Assembly (NCBI GenBank): GCA_019638935.1
Contig: JAHBSW010000015.1
Coordinates: 1 to 50,575 of the forward strand
Direction of reading: 5' to 3'
DNA from: Cryobacterium sp.
GTDB taxonomy: Bacteria > Actinomycetota > Actinomycetes > Actinomycetales > Microbacteriaceae
Length of the DNA stretch: 50,575 nucleotides
Every line of letters starts with the position of its first letter. The first letter of the stretch is position 1. Both the position numbers and the translations under genes were made by a program. Shown here piece after piece: positions 7,817 through 20,500 of the stretch. The notes under the pieces were generated by a model. That model did not search any database and had not been told where the DNA came from. It was given only the letters and a program-made list of their open reading frames with translations.

Positions 7817-7841
7817 TCGCTGCCCTTGAACCGGGCCGGTG

Positions 7842-8852
7842 CTACTGCCGAAAGAGCGCGCTGTAGGCGTTGAGCGCGAGCTGTCCGCCGAGGTGCGCGT
7901 AGAGCACGTTGCTCGTCGCCGGGATCTCCTTCGACGTCACCAGGTCGATGAGACCCGCCATCGACTTGCCCTCGTAGACGGGGTCGATGATCATGCCCTC
8001 GAGCGAGCCCGTGAGGCGAATCGCGTCGAGCGTCGAGTCGACGGGGATGCCGTAGAGGTCCCCCGCCCATCCCTCGAGCACCGTGATCTCGTCGTCGCGC
8101 AGGTCACGGCCGAGTTCGATGAGCTGGGCCGTGCTGCGCGCGATGCGGCCGACCTGCTCGCGCGTCTTCTCGAGAGTCGCCGACGCGTCGATGCCGATGA
8201 CGCGGCGCTCGCGTTCCTGCCCCGCGAAGCCCGCGATCATGCCTGCGTGCGTCGAGCCCGTGACGGTGCAGACGACGATGGTGTCGAAGAAGACACCGAA
8301 CTCCTGCTCCTGCTGCTCGACCTCATAGGCCCAGTTGGCGAAGCCGAGTCCGCCGAGACGGTGGTCGGATGCTCCGGCCGGGATCGCGTACGGCGTACCA
8401 CCGCGCGCCTCGACATCCGCGATCGCCTGCTTCCAGCTGTCACGGAAGCCGATGTCGAAACCGGCGGAGTCCAGCCGCACCTCGGCACCCATGATGCGGG
8501 AGAGCTGGATGTTCCCCACCCGGTCGTTCAGGGCATCCGGCCAGTCCACCCAGTTCTCCTGCACGAGCACGGCCTTCATGCCGAGCTTCGCCGCGACCGC
8601 GGCGACCTGCCGCGTGTGGTTGGACTGGTAGCCGCCGATCGAGACGAGGGTGTCGGCGCCCTGGGCGATCGCCTCGGGCACGAGGTACTCGAGTTTGCGG
8701 GTCTTGTTGCCGCCGAAGGCGAGGCCGCTGTTGACGTCCTCGCGCTTGGCCCAGATCTGGGCACCGCCGAGGTGCTGCGTCAGCCGCGGGAGCGGGTGGA
8801 TCGGGCTCGGCCCGAAGGTGAGCGGGTAGCGCTCGAAATCCGAAATCGACAT
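7842..8852 (-). CDS. acdS: 1-aminocyclopropane-1-carboxylate (ACC) deaminase
   Basis: This 336-residue PLP enzyme converts ACC, the plant ethylene precursor, to 2-oxobutyrate and ammonia. It matches AcdS closely from [15 protein letters not shown] through [18 protein letters not shown] to [15 protein letters not shown]. The PLP lysine is K50 (K51 in the Pseudomonas enzyme). The residues that separate true ACC deaminase from D-cysteine desulfhydrase, Glu295 and Leu322 in reference numbering, are kept here as E294 in DPVYEGKSM and L321 in YAHLGG. A strong AAAGGAGCT precedes the ATG. The gene is divergent from a GntR-family regulator, a known actinobacterial arrangement, and 43 bases with a GTATAC core lie between them. 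Confidence 0.93.
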
Positions 8853-17588: not shown

Positions 17589-18209
17589 GTGGGGCTCGAG
17601 CAAGTCGCGGCGTTCTGGGCCATCTCCATCCTGTTCGTCATCACGCCGGGAGCCGACTGGGCCTATGCGATCACGGCGGGCCTCCGCTTCCACTCCACCG
17701 TGCCGGCCGTACTCGGAATGCTCGCAGGTCACCTCCTCGCAACCCTCGTGGTGGCCACCGGGCTCGGCGTTGTGGTAGCGAGCGTGCCCGGGGCGCTCCC
17801 CGTGCTGACCATCGTCGGCTCGCTCTACCTCATCTGGCTTGGTATCGGAATGCTACGCAGCAAGGGTTCAGTGCACGCGACGGAGGTGCGGACATCCGGT
17901 TCGACGCTTGGCCAGTTCGCGCGAGGCCTCGGTGTGAGCGGGCTGAATCCCAAGGTGTTCCTGCTCTTCCTCGCGCTGCTCCCGCAGTTCACAGATGCCA
18001 CGGGATCGTGGCCCCTCGGCGCACAGATGATGGCGCTCGGCCTGGTTCACGTCGCGAGCTGCGCGCTCGTGTACCTCGTCGTCGGATTCGCCGCGCGGCG
18101 GATGCTCGCCGCCAGCCCGACGGCCGCACGCGTCGTGACGCGCATCTCCGGGATCGCCATGATGATGATCGGGGCGCTGTTGATCGTTGAGAGGATTGCG
18201 GCGAGGTGA
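17589..18209 (+). CDS. LysE/RhtB-family amino acid exporter
   Basis: This is a 206-residue inner membrane protein with about six hydrophobic segments. The family N-terminus is [24 protein letters not shown] with the conserved TPGAD, followed by [17 protein letters not shown] and [22 protein letters not shown] containing the conserved NPK. The start is a GTG preceded by GAAGGGAG. It exports amino acids or related small molecules; the exact substrate is not readable. The neighbouring Lrp regulator fits substrate-induced export. Confidence 0.9.
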
Positions 18210-18249
18210 GACGCACGGTGAAGCACGACCGACAGGGAAGAAGCGAGCA

Positions 18250-18954
18250 ATGACAATCGACAACCAACGTGAGACCTACGCCGAGCTCACTACGCCGCAC
18301 GTGGCAGACGCGTGCATGCGACTCGGCATTCCCGTGCGCTGCGCACCCGCGGGCGTGCGGCCCGTATCGAGCGGGGTGCATATCGTGGGTCGTGTTCTTC
18401 CCGCACGCCATGTCGGCAGCGTCGACGTCTTTCTCGAGGCGTTCGGGGATGCAGGCCCCGGTGATGTTCTCGTCATCGACAACGGTGGGCGCCTCGATGA
18501 GGCGTGCGTCGGTGACCTTGTCACGCTCGAAGCGTCACGGGCTGGGCTCGCCGGAATCGTCATCTGGGGCCTCCACCGCGACACTCCTGAGCTGCGCGAG
18601 CTCGGCCTGCCCGTGTTCAGCATGGGCGCCTTCCCCACCGGACCGCAGCGCGTGGGCCCACAGCCCGACGATGCCCTTGAGAGCGCGTGGTGCGGCGACG
18701 TCATGGTCACAGCAGCAGACCTCGTGCTCGCCGACGACGACGGCGTGATCTTCGTGCCGCTCGACCGCGCGGCGGAGATCGCGAACGTGGCGGTCGGCAT
18801 CCGTGATACCGAGCGTCGACAGGCAGCGCTGATGCACTCCGGCACGAGCCTTCGCGAGCAGACTCGGTTCGCGGACTATCTCGCGGCGCGCACCAAGCAG
18901 CCCGTAACGTTCCGTGAGCACCTGCGCTCGCTCGGCGGTGCGATCGAGGAGTGA
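18250..18954 (+). CDS. RraA-like protein / 4-hydroxy-4-methyl-2-oxoglutarate aldolase family
   Basis: This 234-residue protein is of the RraA fold. The N-terminal [14 protein letters not shown], the [25 protein letters not shown] block and the [14 protein letters not shown] loop (Arg-Asp pair that holds the divalent metal in HMG/CHA aldolases) are present. The length is near that of the aldolases, longer than E. coli RraA (161), so an aldolase or decarboxylase acting on an oxo-acid is more likely than RNase E inhibition. It lies 40 bases downstream of lysE. The ATG at 18250 is chosen for its match to family length; the substrate is uncertain. Confidence 0.8.
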
Positions 18955-18973: not shown

Positions 18974-19324
18974 TCAGACGGTGGCGAGCAGCCCCGCCAC
19001 CGAGTCGAGCGAGCCGGGAACAAGGCGGTAGTACGCCCAGGTGCCGCGCTTGGAGCGGGTCAGGTAGCCGGCATCCGTCAGCACCTTGAGGTGGTGCGAG
19101 ACGGTCGGCTGGCTCAGCCCGAGCGGTTCGGTGAGGTCGCACACACACGCCTCGGCATCAGCATGGGCGGCGATCATCGAGATGATGCGCAGGCGGGCGG
19201 GGTCGGCGAGCGCCTTCATCGACGCGGCGAGGCTCTCGGCGTTCGGCGTCGACAGCGGCTCGCGGGTGATCGGTGAGCAGCACGACTGCAGGTCGCGGAT
19301 CGGGAGCAGCTCGGCGATGGTCAT
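18974..19324 (-). CDS. arsR: ArsR arsenite-responsive repressor
   Basis: This 116-residue winged-helix repressor has the classical As(III) site in the first DNA-proximal helix, ACVCDLTEPLGLSQPTVSHHLKVL, where the CVCDL cysteines bind arsenite. An extra CC pair occurs near the N-terminus (LQSCCSPI), which may add a metal ligand. The recognition helix SQPTVSHHLKVLTDAG and wing RGTWAYYRL are normal. ATG 19324 gives a standard N-terminus; ATG 19342 would add MCENGF with another Cys. It is divergent from the Cys-rich peptide and arsC, with a shared operator region. Confidence 0.92.
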   Translation of the reverse strand: MTIAELLPIRDLQSCCSPITREPLSTPNAESLAASMKALADPARLRIISMIAAHADAEACVCDLTEPLGLSQPTVSHHLKVLTDAGYLTRSKRGTWAYYRLVPGSLDSVAGLLATV

Positions 19325-19345
19325 GAACCCATTCTCACACATCTA

Positions 19346-19387
19346 TTGACAGTCATCGATGTATGAGCGGATACTTCTTACATCGAT
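19346..19387 (+). promoter_or_regulatory. Promoter and ArsR-type operator for the peptide-arsC transcript
   Basis: A -35 TTGACA (19346-19351) and a -10-like GATACT (19370-19375) are 18 bases apart. The inverted repeat ATCGATGTA (19355-19363) / TACATCGAT (19379-19387) spans the spacer and start region, and a further CATCGAT is at 19391-19397. A repressor bound here would block both divergent genes. Confidence 0.6.
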
Positions 19388-19412
19388 AACCATCGATAGA
19401 AGGAGGTGCATG

Positions 19413-19481
19413 ATGAACGAGGACTGCTGCGAACTGCTGAACTGTCCACCCGACATCTGCAGCCCCGGCTGCTGCTGCTGA
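19413..19481 (+). CDS. 22-residue seven-cysteine peptide between arsR and arsC
   Basis: This short ORF, too small for most gene finders, has the best Shine-Dalgarno in the region: AAGGAGGT at 19400-19407, six bases before ATG 19413 (ATG 19410 is also possible). It encodes 22 residues with cysteines at 5, 6, 11, 16, 20, 21 and 22, containing NEDCCELLNC and ending PGCCC. It has acidic residues and prolines but no signal peptide. It lies under the arsenic-type promoter and 45 bases before arsC, in the same frame. It could be a thiol peptide binding As(III) or metal, a leader peptide sensing Cys-tRNA, or both. I know no described family. Confidence 0.65.
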   Translation: MNEDCCELLNCPPDICSPGCCC

Positions 19482-19526
19482 CACTGCAGCATCCACGGCC
19501 CCGCCACCATCGATCGAGAGGAAAGC

Positions 19527-19928
19527 ATGACCACGCCGACCGTGCTGTTCGTCTGCGTTCACAACGCCGGCCGCTCGCAGATGGCGGCGGGGTACCTCCG
19601 TGAGCTCGCCGGCGAGCGCGTGACGGTGCTCTCTGCGGGCAGTGAGCCCGCCGACAGCATCAACCCGGTCGCCGTCGCCGCCATGGCCGAGGAAGGCATC
19701 GACATTACCGGGCGTCAGCCTGCAGTGCTGACGACGGATGCGGTGCGCGAGTCCGACGTCGTCATCACCATGGGCTGCGGTGACGCGTGCCCCATCGTCC
19801 CCGGCAAGCGCTACGAGGACTGGGAACTCCCCGATCCCGCCGGGCTCGACCTCGACGCCGTGCGGCCCATCCGCGACGAGATCAAGGCGCTGGTGGAAAG
19901 GCTGGTCGCCGAACTGACGAACAAATGA
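19527..19928 (+). CDS. arsC: Arsenate reductase, low-molecular-weight phosphatase type
   Basis: This 133-residue enzyme reduces arsenate to arsenite. The P-loop CVHNAGR has nucleophile C10 and R16 (CX5R). Two further cysteines, C84 and C88 in MGCGDACP, form the redox relay, and D103 in LPDPAG is the general acid. Fewer than the spacing of the thioredoxin-coupled enzymes separates the second pair (CxxxC), so the electron donor, thioredoxin or mycothiol/mycoredoxin, is not certain. GAGGAAAGC precedes the ATG. No arsenite exporter gene is next to it in the window. Confidence 0.92.
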   Translation: MTTPTVLFVCVHNAGRSQMAAGYLRELAGERVTVLSAGSEPADSINPVAVAAMAEEGIDITGRQPAVLTTDAVRESDVVITMGCGDACPIVPGKRYEDWELPDPAGLDLDAVRPIRDEIKALVERLVAELTNK

Positions 19929-19991: not shown

Positions 19992-20240
19992 CTAGCCCTC
20001 GGTGTCAAGTAGATCGAGCAGCTGAGATCGCGCTTTCATGGCATGGATCACGAGCTCGTTGCCGCTGTCGAACACGAGCACGACGGTTTCCAGCAAGCGC
20101 CCCTGCGTATCGAATCCGAGCCGCAGTTGCCGAGCCGGGCTGTCGTCATCCAACTCGTCGATCCAGAGCGACCAGGCGGCTGCTTGGATCGCGTCCTCCG
20201 GAAGGACTCCGTGCTTGAGCGCAGCGTCGTGAACCTTCAC
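19992..20240 (-). CDS. Putative toxin of an RHH-antitoxin pair
   Basis: This 82-residue protein starts MKVHDAALKHGVLPEDAIQAA and has central beta strands (RQLRLGFDTQGRLLETVVLVF) and a C-terminal ELVIHAMKARSQLLDLL. The pattern, with a conserved H near the start, RxLRLGxD and an HAMKAR end, resembles small RelE/BrnT-like toxins that cut RNA. Its ATG overlaps the stop of the upstream RHH gene (ATGA, 20237-20240), the usual antitoxin-first order. Activity is inferred from form and context only. Confidence 0.75.
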   Translation of the reverse strand: MKVHDAALKHGVLPEDAIQAAAWSLWIDELDDDSPARQLRLGFDTQGRLLETVVLVFDSGNELVIHAMKARSQLLDLLDTEG

Positions 20241-20500
20241 GCGGCCAGCGCCGCAAGCGCTTCGCGGATCACCTCGGAGCGAGTCTTCCCCTCGCGTTCG
20301 GCGAGCGCATCAAGCTCTGCTATCTCGTCGAGGGTGAGACGCAGCGCAACGACCTGAGACGGTTCAGCCCCGCGACCCGGACGCCCCCGGCCTCGCTTCT
20401 TCAGGGCATCAACGTCGTACCCGACGTAAGCCTCGGCCGCCCAAGCGGCGATCTGCTCATCAGTGACCGGCTTCCCATTAATCGTCTCGTCCGACGTCAT
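20237..20500 (-). CDS. CopG-like ribbon-helix-helix antitoxin
   Basis: This 87-residue protein has an N-terminal segment (TINGKPVTDEQIAAWAAEAYVGYDVDALKKR), a basic linker RGRGRPGRG that may contact DNA, and a C-terminal RHH domain (VVALRLTLDEIAELDALAEREGKTRSEVIREALAAL). It overlaps the putative toxin gene. The upstream 69 bases are A+T-richer and probably hold the self-regulated promoter. Confidence 0.82.
   Translation of the reverse strand: MTSDETINGKPVTDEQIAAWAAEAYVGYDVDALKKRGRGRPGRGAEPSQVVALRLTLDEIAELDALAEREGKTRSEVIREALAALAA

Follow-up and report, generated by a model that had tools for sequence, protein, structure and literature searches.

The intergenic region between a divergent arsR and arsC pair in the 50,575-nucleotide contig of Cryobacterium sp. 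analyzed here (the window) contains a reading frame for a cysteine-rich micropeptide, which, on the evidence of its homologues, is a member of a previously unannotated peptide family of the Microbacteriaceae. The comparisons described below suggest that this is a real, overlooked gene, the product of which probably helps the cell to hold toxic arsenite. As to the means by which it does so, we give an even chance to a micropeptide that acts in trans under the control of ArsR, binds As(III) and is produced in excess over ArsC by way of a leaky terminator hairpin. Translation of the peptide, its induction by As(III), its binding of As(III), and a leaky-terminator effect of the hairpin in favor of the peptide are all predictions from sequence.

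The features of the locus, where the micropeptide gene is placed between the two divergent ars genes, are collected in Table 1. A sequence-only reading had described a Shine-Dalgarno (SD) sequence, an ATG and 22 codons with seven Cys under a TTGACA/GATACT promoter with an inverted repeat, flanked by arsR and arsC, and all of these elements are present as described: the frame of the peptide runs from the ATG at 19413 to the TGA at 19479–19481, its Cys residues lie at positions 5, 6, 11, 16, 20, 21 and 22, and both flanking genes are supported by Pfam. The order from 19400 onward is AAGGAGGTGC-ATG-ATG-AACGAGGAC..., with a further ATG at 19410, and the starts of the homologues correspond to 19413. 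The inverted repeat is likewise real, with arms at 19342–19366 and 19376–19400 that are 80% complementary, although two palindromes describe it better. The window ArsR has a CC motif near its N terminus (LQSCCSP), and the ATG at 19324 may be an alternative start of its gene. A chance origin of the peptide frame is ruled out by the homologues elsewhere and by dinucleotide shuffles of the intergenic region, 1 in 5000 of which gave an ORF of at least 15 residues with at least seven Cys on either strand (the observed Cys count in this test is eight, because the test uses the longer frame from the ATG at 19359). We note in passing that the window genome has a second arsC (G000:C19:17368–17754), 59% identical to the first, and that the window also contains two overlapping small genes in a toxin-antitoxin-like layout (19992–20240 and 20237–20500, minus strand), the pair encoding an RHH/CopG protein (Pfam) and then an 82-residue protein without a Pfam match.

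Table 1. Positions of the features of the arsR–micropeptide–arsC locus in the window.
Feature	Position	Strand	Basis or remark
arsR, ArsR/SmtB repressor	18974..19342	-	Pfam HTH_5
Putative ArsR operator, copy 1, TATTGACAGTCATCGATG	19344..19361	.	Overlaps the -35 box
Promoter-like TTGACA-18 nt-GATACT	19346..19375	+	TTGACA 19346-19351, GATACT 19370-19375
Putative ArsR operator, copy 2, CATCGATAACCATCGATA	19381..19398	.	Between -10 and SD, 37 nt past the first
Shine-Dalgarno AAGGAGGT	19400..19407	+	Sequence; SD-like purine stretch in 19/19 peptide rows
Micropeptide gene, 22 aa, Cys-rich, MNEDCCELLNCPPDICSPGCCC	19413..19481 incl. TGA	+	ORF reading and homologues
Spacer from peptide stop to arsC, 45 nt	19482..19526	+	Strong hairpin site in 18/19 rows, not here
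arsC, LMWPc-fold arsenate reductase	19527..19928	+	Pfam LMWPc

The family as assembled comprises 19 rows, which represent 18 distinct loci since L025 and L150, identical over 2822 bases, count as one genome; all belong to the Microbacteriaceae, with peptides of 21–26 residues. The sequence-only reading had proposed that short ORFs with CC ends be sought upstream of arsC-like genes in this family, and such ORFs are indeed found there. A first scan of the 250 nt upstream of arsC at 85 loci yielded a congener (L003), a Subtercola record (L025) and a Curtobacterium record (L031); a four-row profile run against 398 Microbacteriaceae genomes recovered, apart from the window and the congener, eight additional loci, of which seven lie between arsR and arsC; and genus-level searches contributed seven further rows, one of which is the same genome as L025. 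The final profile matches 16 of the 398 genomes at E ≤ 0.02, of which 11 were accepted, the five weak matches that were dropped having no adjoining arsR or arsC. The row filter required a CC-stop end, and all credible matches of the genus-level searches passed it, but the profile itself favors such ends. Because most loci from L086 on came by the peptide profile, the frequency should be taken from these 11 of 398 genomes and from the arsC-based sample, in which the peptide is present at 2 of 80 loci (L068 is too short to judge). Within the genus of the window, two of eight genomes carry the peptide, and two others, with a close arsC, lack it. Among 28 divergent arsR–arsC gaps, a set enriched for peptide loci, the peptide is present in 15, all of at least 188 nt, and at six of the 13 peptide-free gaps the ArsR is 64% identical or more; of these six gaps, five measure 67–128 nt and one 416 nt.

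Membership beyond the Microbacteriaceae was rejected on the basis of an order sample and a phylum sample of 396 genomes each, in which seven genomes (beside that of the window) and 14 genomes, respectively, have a match at E ≤ 0.05, one of the latter being also in the order sample. Of the weak loci, fifteen were inspected: ten came from the order and phylum samples, and the other five were those dropped in the search of the family genomes. Tblastn of all 44 weak loci placed arsR or arsC next to none of them, so that they were treated as chance matches. With no credible member in either sample, the family seems to be confined to the Microbacteriaceae, and to be patchy there. Plasmid copies were also considered and discarded, the search for them returning just two tblastn matches, both weak, one within istB and the other within a chemotaxis gene.

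Relatives without the Cys pattern had been named in the sequence-only reading as evidence that would weigh against it; instead, a C-x4-C-P core and a terminal Cys-Cys-stop are kept in all 19 rows, and a second Pro in all but L149. The number of Cys per peptide is four in four rows (L093, L094, L146 and L095), five in one, six in eight and seven in six. Three sequence types can be distinguished, namely CCELLNCPPD/CCDPLTCPPE in the genus of the window (type 1), CCDP[ST]VCPP with CC ends (type 2), and an LC-like type with C-x4-CPPEL and CC or CC-x3-CC ends (type 3). The same reading had named synonymous and nonsynonymous rates of similar size as counter-evidence, and here the outcome is divided: pN/pS is 0.38 in one group and 0.50 in another, which supports a real peptide, but 0.73 when pooled over the first 19–21 codons of the wider LC group, and undefined in the four-Cys group, which has nonsynonymous differences and zero synonymous ones. 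This last pattern counts against simple purifying selection, although the numbers are low and the third positions nearly all G/C; some synonymous third-position changes do occur at conserved residues. It would be possible for the peptide to be a functionless product, its frame being a translated spacer that loads ribosomes or stabilizes the mRNA ahead of arsC, and the strong SD sequence, short length and sparse spread of the family (11/398) would suit such a role. Considering the residue-level conservation over 18 loci, however, as well as the persistence of the peptide without arsC (see below), we regard this as highly improbable.

The view that no family of this kind had been described in ars operons agrees with the databases and with the literature covered. 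Pfam and NCBIfam searches with 18 members, at E values up to 10, returned no family, and a PDB search with the peptide profile no sequence, bearing in mind that profile searches have little power on 22 residues; in the titles and opening abstracts of open-licence literature, no such peptide was described in ars operons. A known RNA family was rejected as well, as the eight Rfam rows obtained are all far below the gathering score (snoRNA, miRNA and isrG models).

The two putative operators are of one palindrome type, CATYGA-N6-TCGATG, and from their position and symmetry we infer that ArsR would bind at both. Two copies of this palindrome, or close variants, are present in all 19 peptide rows, 33–39 nt apart. 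The first lies over the -35 box; the second follows the -10 region and precedes the SD sequence, in L145 by ~60 nt. The gene for ArsR adjoins this promoter in 18 of the 19 rows, the odd one being L091. The operator pair is, however, independent of the peptide, since the same two palindromes can be recognized by eye at arsR–arsC pairs that have no peptide (L009, L057 and L066). At L066 (1150–1317, matching L174, G157), a different ORF of 55 residues, again with a CC-stop end, sits behind the second operator in the peptide-free arsR–arsC gap of 416 nt.

Downstream of the peptide, 18 of the 19 rows have a GC-rich hairpin with a stem of 9–17 pairs that begins 2–16 nt past the stop, with a folding energy of ≤ -20 kcal/mol over 50 nt and z between -2.2 and -5.2; the same test identifies a hairpin behind 15 of 75 control genes, which are script-picked ORFs in the same stretches rather than annotated genes. 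The hairpin structure itself is supported by covariation: in an alignment of nine LC-group rows, pairing is seen in 98% of cells, and both sides are altered in 4 of 11 pairs, a degree of compensatory change that 13 of 500 shuffles reach, while the covariation score and the percentage paired were reached by no shuffle and slid alignments attained at most 52.5%. This alignment takes in nine of the 18 hairpin rows, was hand-trimmed, and includes L090 by its second hairpin. As read from the sequences, no peptide row has a U run 3' of the hairpin, which is thus not a textbook terminator. A dispersed hairpin repeat could be discarded, since the one stem-loop pattern tested occurs at 10 of 180 loci, each of which is a copy of a peptide locus. 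The window is the sole row without the hairpin, its first 50 nt past the stop folding weakly (-5.7 kcal/mol, z 1.06), and the element is not visible from the window because this copy has been lost. In a longer fold, the terminal Cys codons of the window (GCUGC) pair with GCAGC just downstream.

These observations bear on the possibility of a cis-acting leader, in which ribosomes that are slowed at the terminal Cys codons, as charged tRNA-Cys runs short when arsenite ties up thiols, or that are stalled by the nascent chain, would mask the beginning of the hairpin and allow transcription or translation to continue into arsC. Counted in favor of such a leader are the invariant CC-stop end, the short distance from the stop to the hairpin (18/19 rows) and an arsC behind the peptide in 17 of the 19 rows, and the pairing of the Cys codons of the window with the sequence downstream keeps this reading alive for the window genome. 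Furthermore, the terminal Cys codons are exclusively TGC (38/38, compared to 51/66 for other Cys codons, in 18 rows), which hints at a role at the nucleotide level, although the p value of 0.0008 for this bias is too strong as the rows are related. A precedent is provided by mycobacterial poly-Cys sORFs, which are reported to act as cysteine-responsive attenuators (PMC9094748, PMC4633059 and PMC13236596). However, antiterminator pairing found no support, as the coding region pairs with a hairpin arm of its own locus no better than with one from another locus (16 rows, p 0.29, 0.37), and these rows give no sign of an alternative structure; a simple masking model does not need one. In addition, conservation extends past the Cys residues to Pro, and in the LC group also to ELG and PEL, the product of arsC does not serve cysteine synthesis, and two loci retain both peptide and hairpin without a working arsC behind them. 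Taking these points together, we consider a leader unlikely, although it is the strongest of the rivals.

The two loci in question, L142 and L091, differ in what remains of the operon. At L142, arsR, the operators, the peptide and the hairpin are followed by 68 nt to a convergent gene, similar by eye to the RraA-like gene of the window, with no arsC, copies of which are present on other contigs of the genome. At L091, the operator, peptide and hairpin are intact, but there is no arsR within the surrounding 18 kb, and another contig of the genome has an intact arsR–arsC pair without the peptide. Past the hairpin of L091 there is a stretch of 28 residues that resembles the ArsC C terminus with 64% identity (E 0.25, weak alone); these ~28 codons (L116 ~7831–7914) give the appearance of a decayed ars operon, and the locus may be caught in mid-decay, the evidence for an arsC remnant being this match together with its position. 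At both loci there would be nothing for a pure arsC leader to do, unless the loci are simply decaying. As a separate observation, an RraA-like gene flanks the arsR–peptide unit in two genera (18187–18954 in the window; 689–1429 at L142, the latter by eye), and it lies beyond arsR in the window and beyond the peptide at L142, as would be seen after an inversion of the unit.

The phylogenies of the two flanking genes differ in how well they accommodate the peptide. On the ArsR tree (33 rows), the presence of the peptide needs two changes (bootstrap range 1–3) and a single peptide clade is not rejected (p-AU 0.356), whereas on the ArsC tree (31 rows) it needs five changes (bootstrap range 5–7) and a single clade is rejected (p-AU 0.0134). 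Note that the rows were hand-chosen after larger trees had been inspected, such that these p values do not come from a blind test, that L175 (the same place as L145) was left out of both trees, and that many branches are weak. This difference in fit points to inheritance of the peptide together with ArsR, with the arsC behind it having been exchanged; we give it moderate weight, because gene closeness could suffice to explain it and because a leader would work before any arsC. The same pattern would also suit a role of the peptide as a relay or brake for ArsR, competing with or delivering As(III) to its CC site and thereby setting the induction threshold. The peptide is co-inherited with ArsR and not with ArsC, L142 has arsR and the peptide alone, and a CC motif is present both in the window ArsR and at the peptide ends; yet the co-inheritance may merely reflect which gene is nearer, and at L091 the peptide has no arsR beside it, ArsR being encoded on another contig. 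We therefore see a relay as quite improbable.

The Cys residues could, in principle, serve another chemistry, with the peptide either serving ArsC as a thiol partner or buffering Cd, Zn or Cu instead of As. Many ArsC enzymes need a thiol partner, and the Cys pairs would suit disulfide exchange or soft metals. However, a CxxC pair is absent from all 19 rows, two loci have no working arsC in cis, and the promoter adjoins arsR, which makes a redox or other-metal peptide very unlikely. With regard to efflux, the search covered one pump, ACR3, in the peptide genomes alone: 5 of 17 peptide genomes, all of one genus, have an ACR3 over the curated cut-off, the window genome (94.86% complete) has none over it, and in six more peptide genomes the matches are weaker and may represent different transporters from the ACR3 superfamily.

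Returning to the As(III)-binding micropeptide, ArsR would repress the divergent promoter by way of the two operator palindromes, until As(III) that enters the cell or is produced by ArsC releases it and the peptide gene is transcribed. Strong translation of the peptide would follow, and its 4–7 Cys would bind As(III) in three-thiol sites and so buffer arsenite close to its source until export or hand-over, while the hairpin present in most relatives would act as a leaky terminator or 3' stabilizer, giving much peptide and little ArsC. We favor this trans-acting peptide in light of the residue conservation, the pN/pS values, the palindromes in 19/19 rows, the hairpin, L142 and L091, and the co-inheritance with ArsR, and the low presence of ACR3 (5/17, and not in the window genome) is counted in its favor as well. 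Counted against it are the patchiness of the family (11/398), the four-Cys rows, the pooled pN/pS of 0.73, the TGC bias, the possible decay of L091 and a hairpin that has no U run. The sequence-only reading had left the choice between a thiol scaffold and a leader peptide; the family has turned out to be real, and the loci without arsC, together with the inheritance with ArsR, favor the scaffold over the leader. The two roles could also be combined in a nascent-peptide sensor, in which As(III) on the ribosome-bound chain would cause a stall at the Cys-stop over the hairpin and open arsC, and the released peptide would act as a buffer; we hold this to be a remote prospect, but were it true, a single 22-codon gene would be both sensor and sponge.

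The peptide family is new, and, if its function holds, it would be a novel variant of the metallothionein-like peptides. Were As(III) binding to be true, some ars operons would hold a layer that genome annotation has missed, with a gene-encoded thiol buffer of ~22 residues and, as part of the same unit, a hairpin through which the proportion of buffer to enzyme could be adjusted. The locus offers a compact and clean system in which to study how cells cope with the arsenite produced by their own arsenate reductase.

Among known systems, SmtA and the mycobacterial MymT are short, Cys-dense proteins encoded beside or under a metal-responsive regulator, and buffer soft metals. The micropeptide resembles these in being short and encoded beside arsR, with 4–7 Cys in 21–26 residues and the terminal CC in 19/19 rows, and differs from them in being so small (21–26 residues), in having no Pfam or NCBIfam match, and in being paired with arsR and arsC; its Cys spacing is presumably different too.

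A second comparison is with the leaderless poly-Cys sORFs of mycobacteria, which lie upstream of an operon gene (Canestrari 2020, as described in PMC9094748, PMC4633059 and PMC13236596). Both are short upstream ORFs with a Cys cluster at the C terminus; however, the micropeptide rows have an SD-like stretch (19/19) and predicted promoter-like elements well upstream, a 5' UTR with a palindrome, conservation beyond the Cys residues and a hairpin past the stop, and the micropeptide is found in an arsenic operon, with two loci that have no working gene behind it. The ars1 operon of Bacillus sp. CDB3 likewise has a hairpin within an ars operon, and this intercistronic hairpin is reported to lower downstream expression (PMC4562236), its mutation giving more than one-fold more of the long transcript; it is placed between arsC and arsD and has a U run, in contrast to the hairpin described here, which follows the micropeptide and has none. 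Finally, in AfArsR, As(III) is reported to be bound by three Cys that lie close together in a single chain (PMC11212059), the site in this case being inside the regulator and not, as would be the case for the micropeptide, on a free peptide.
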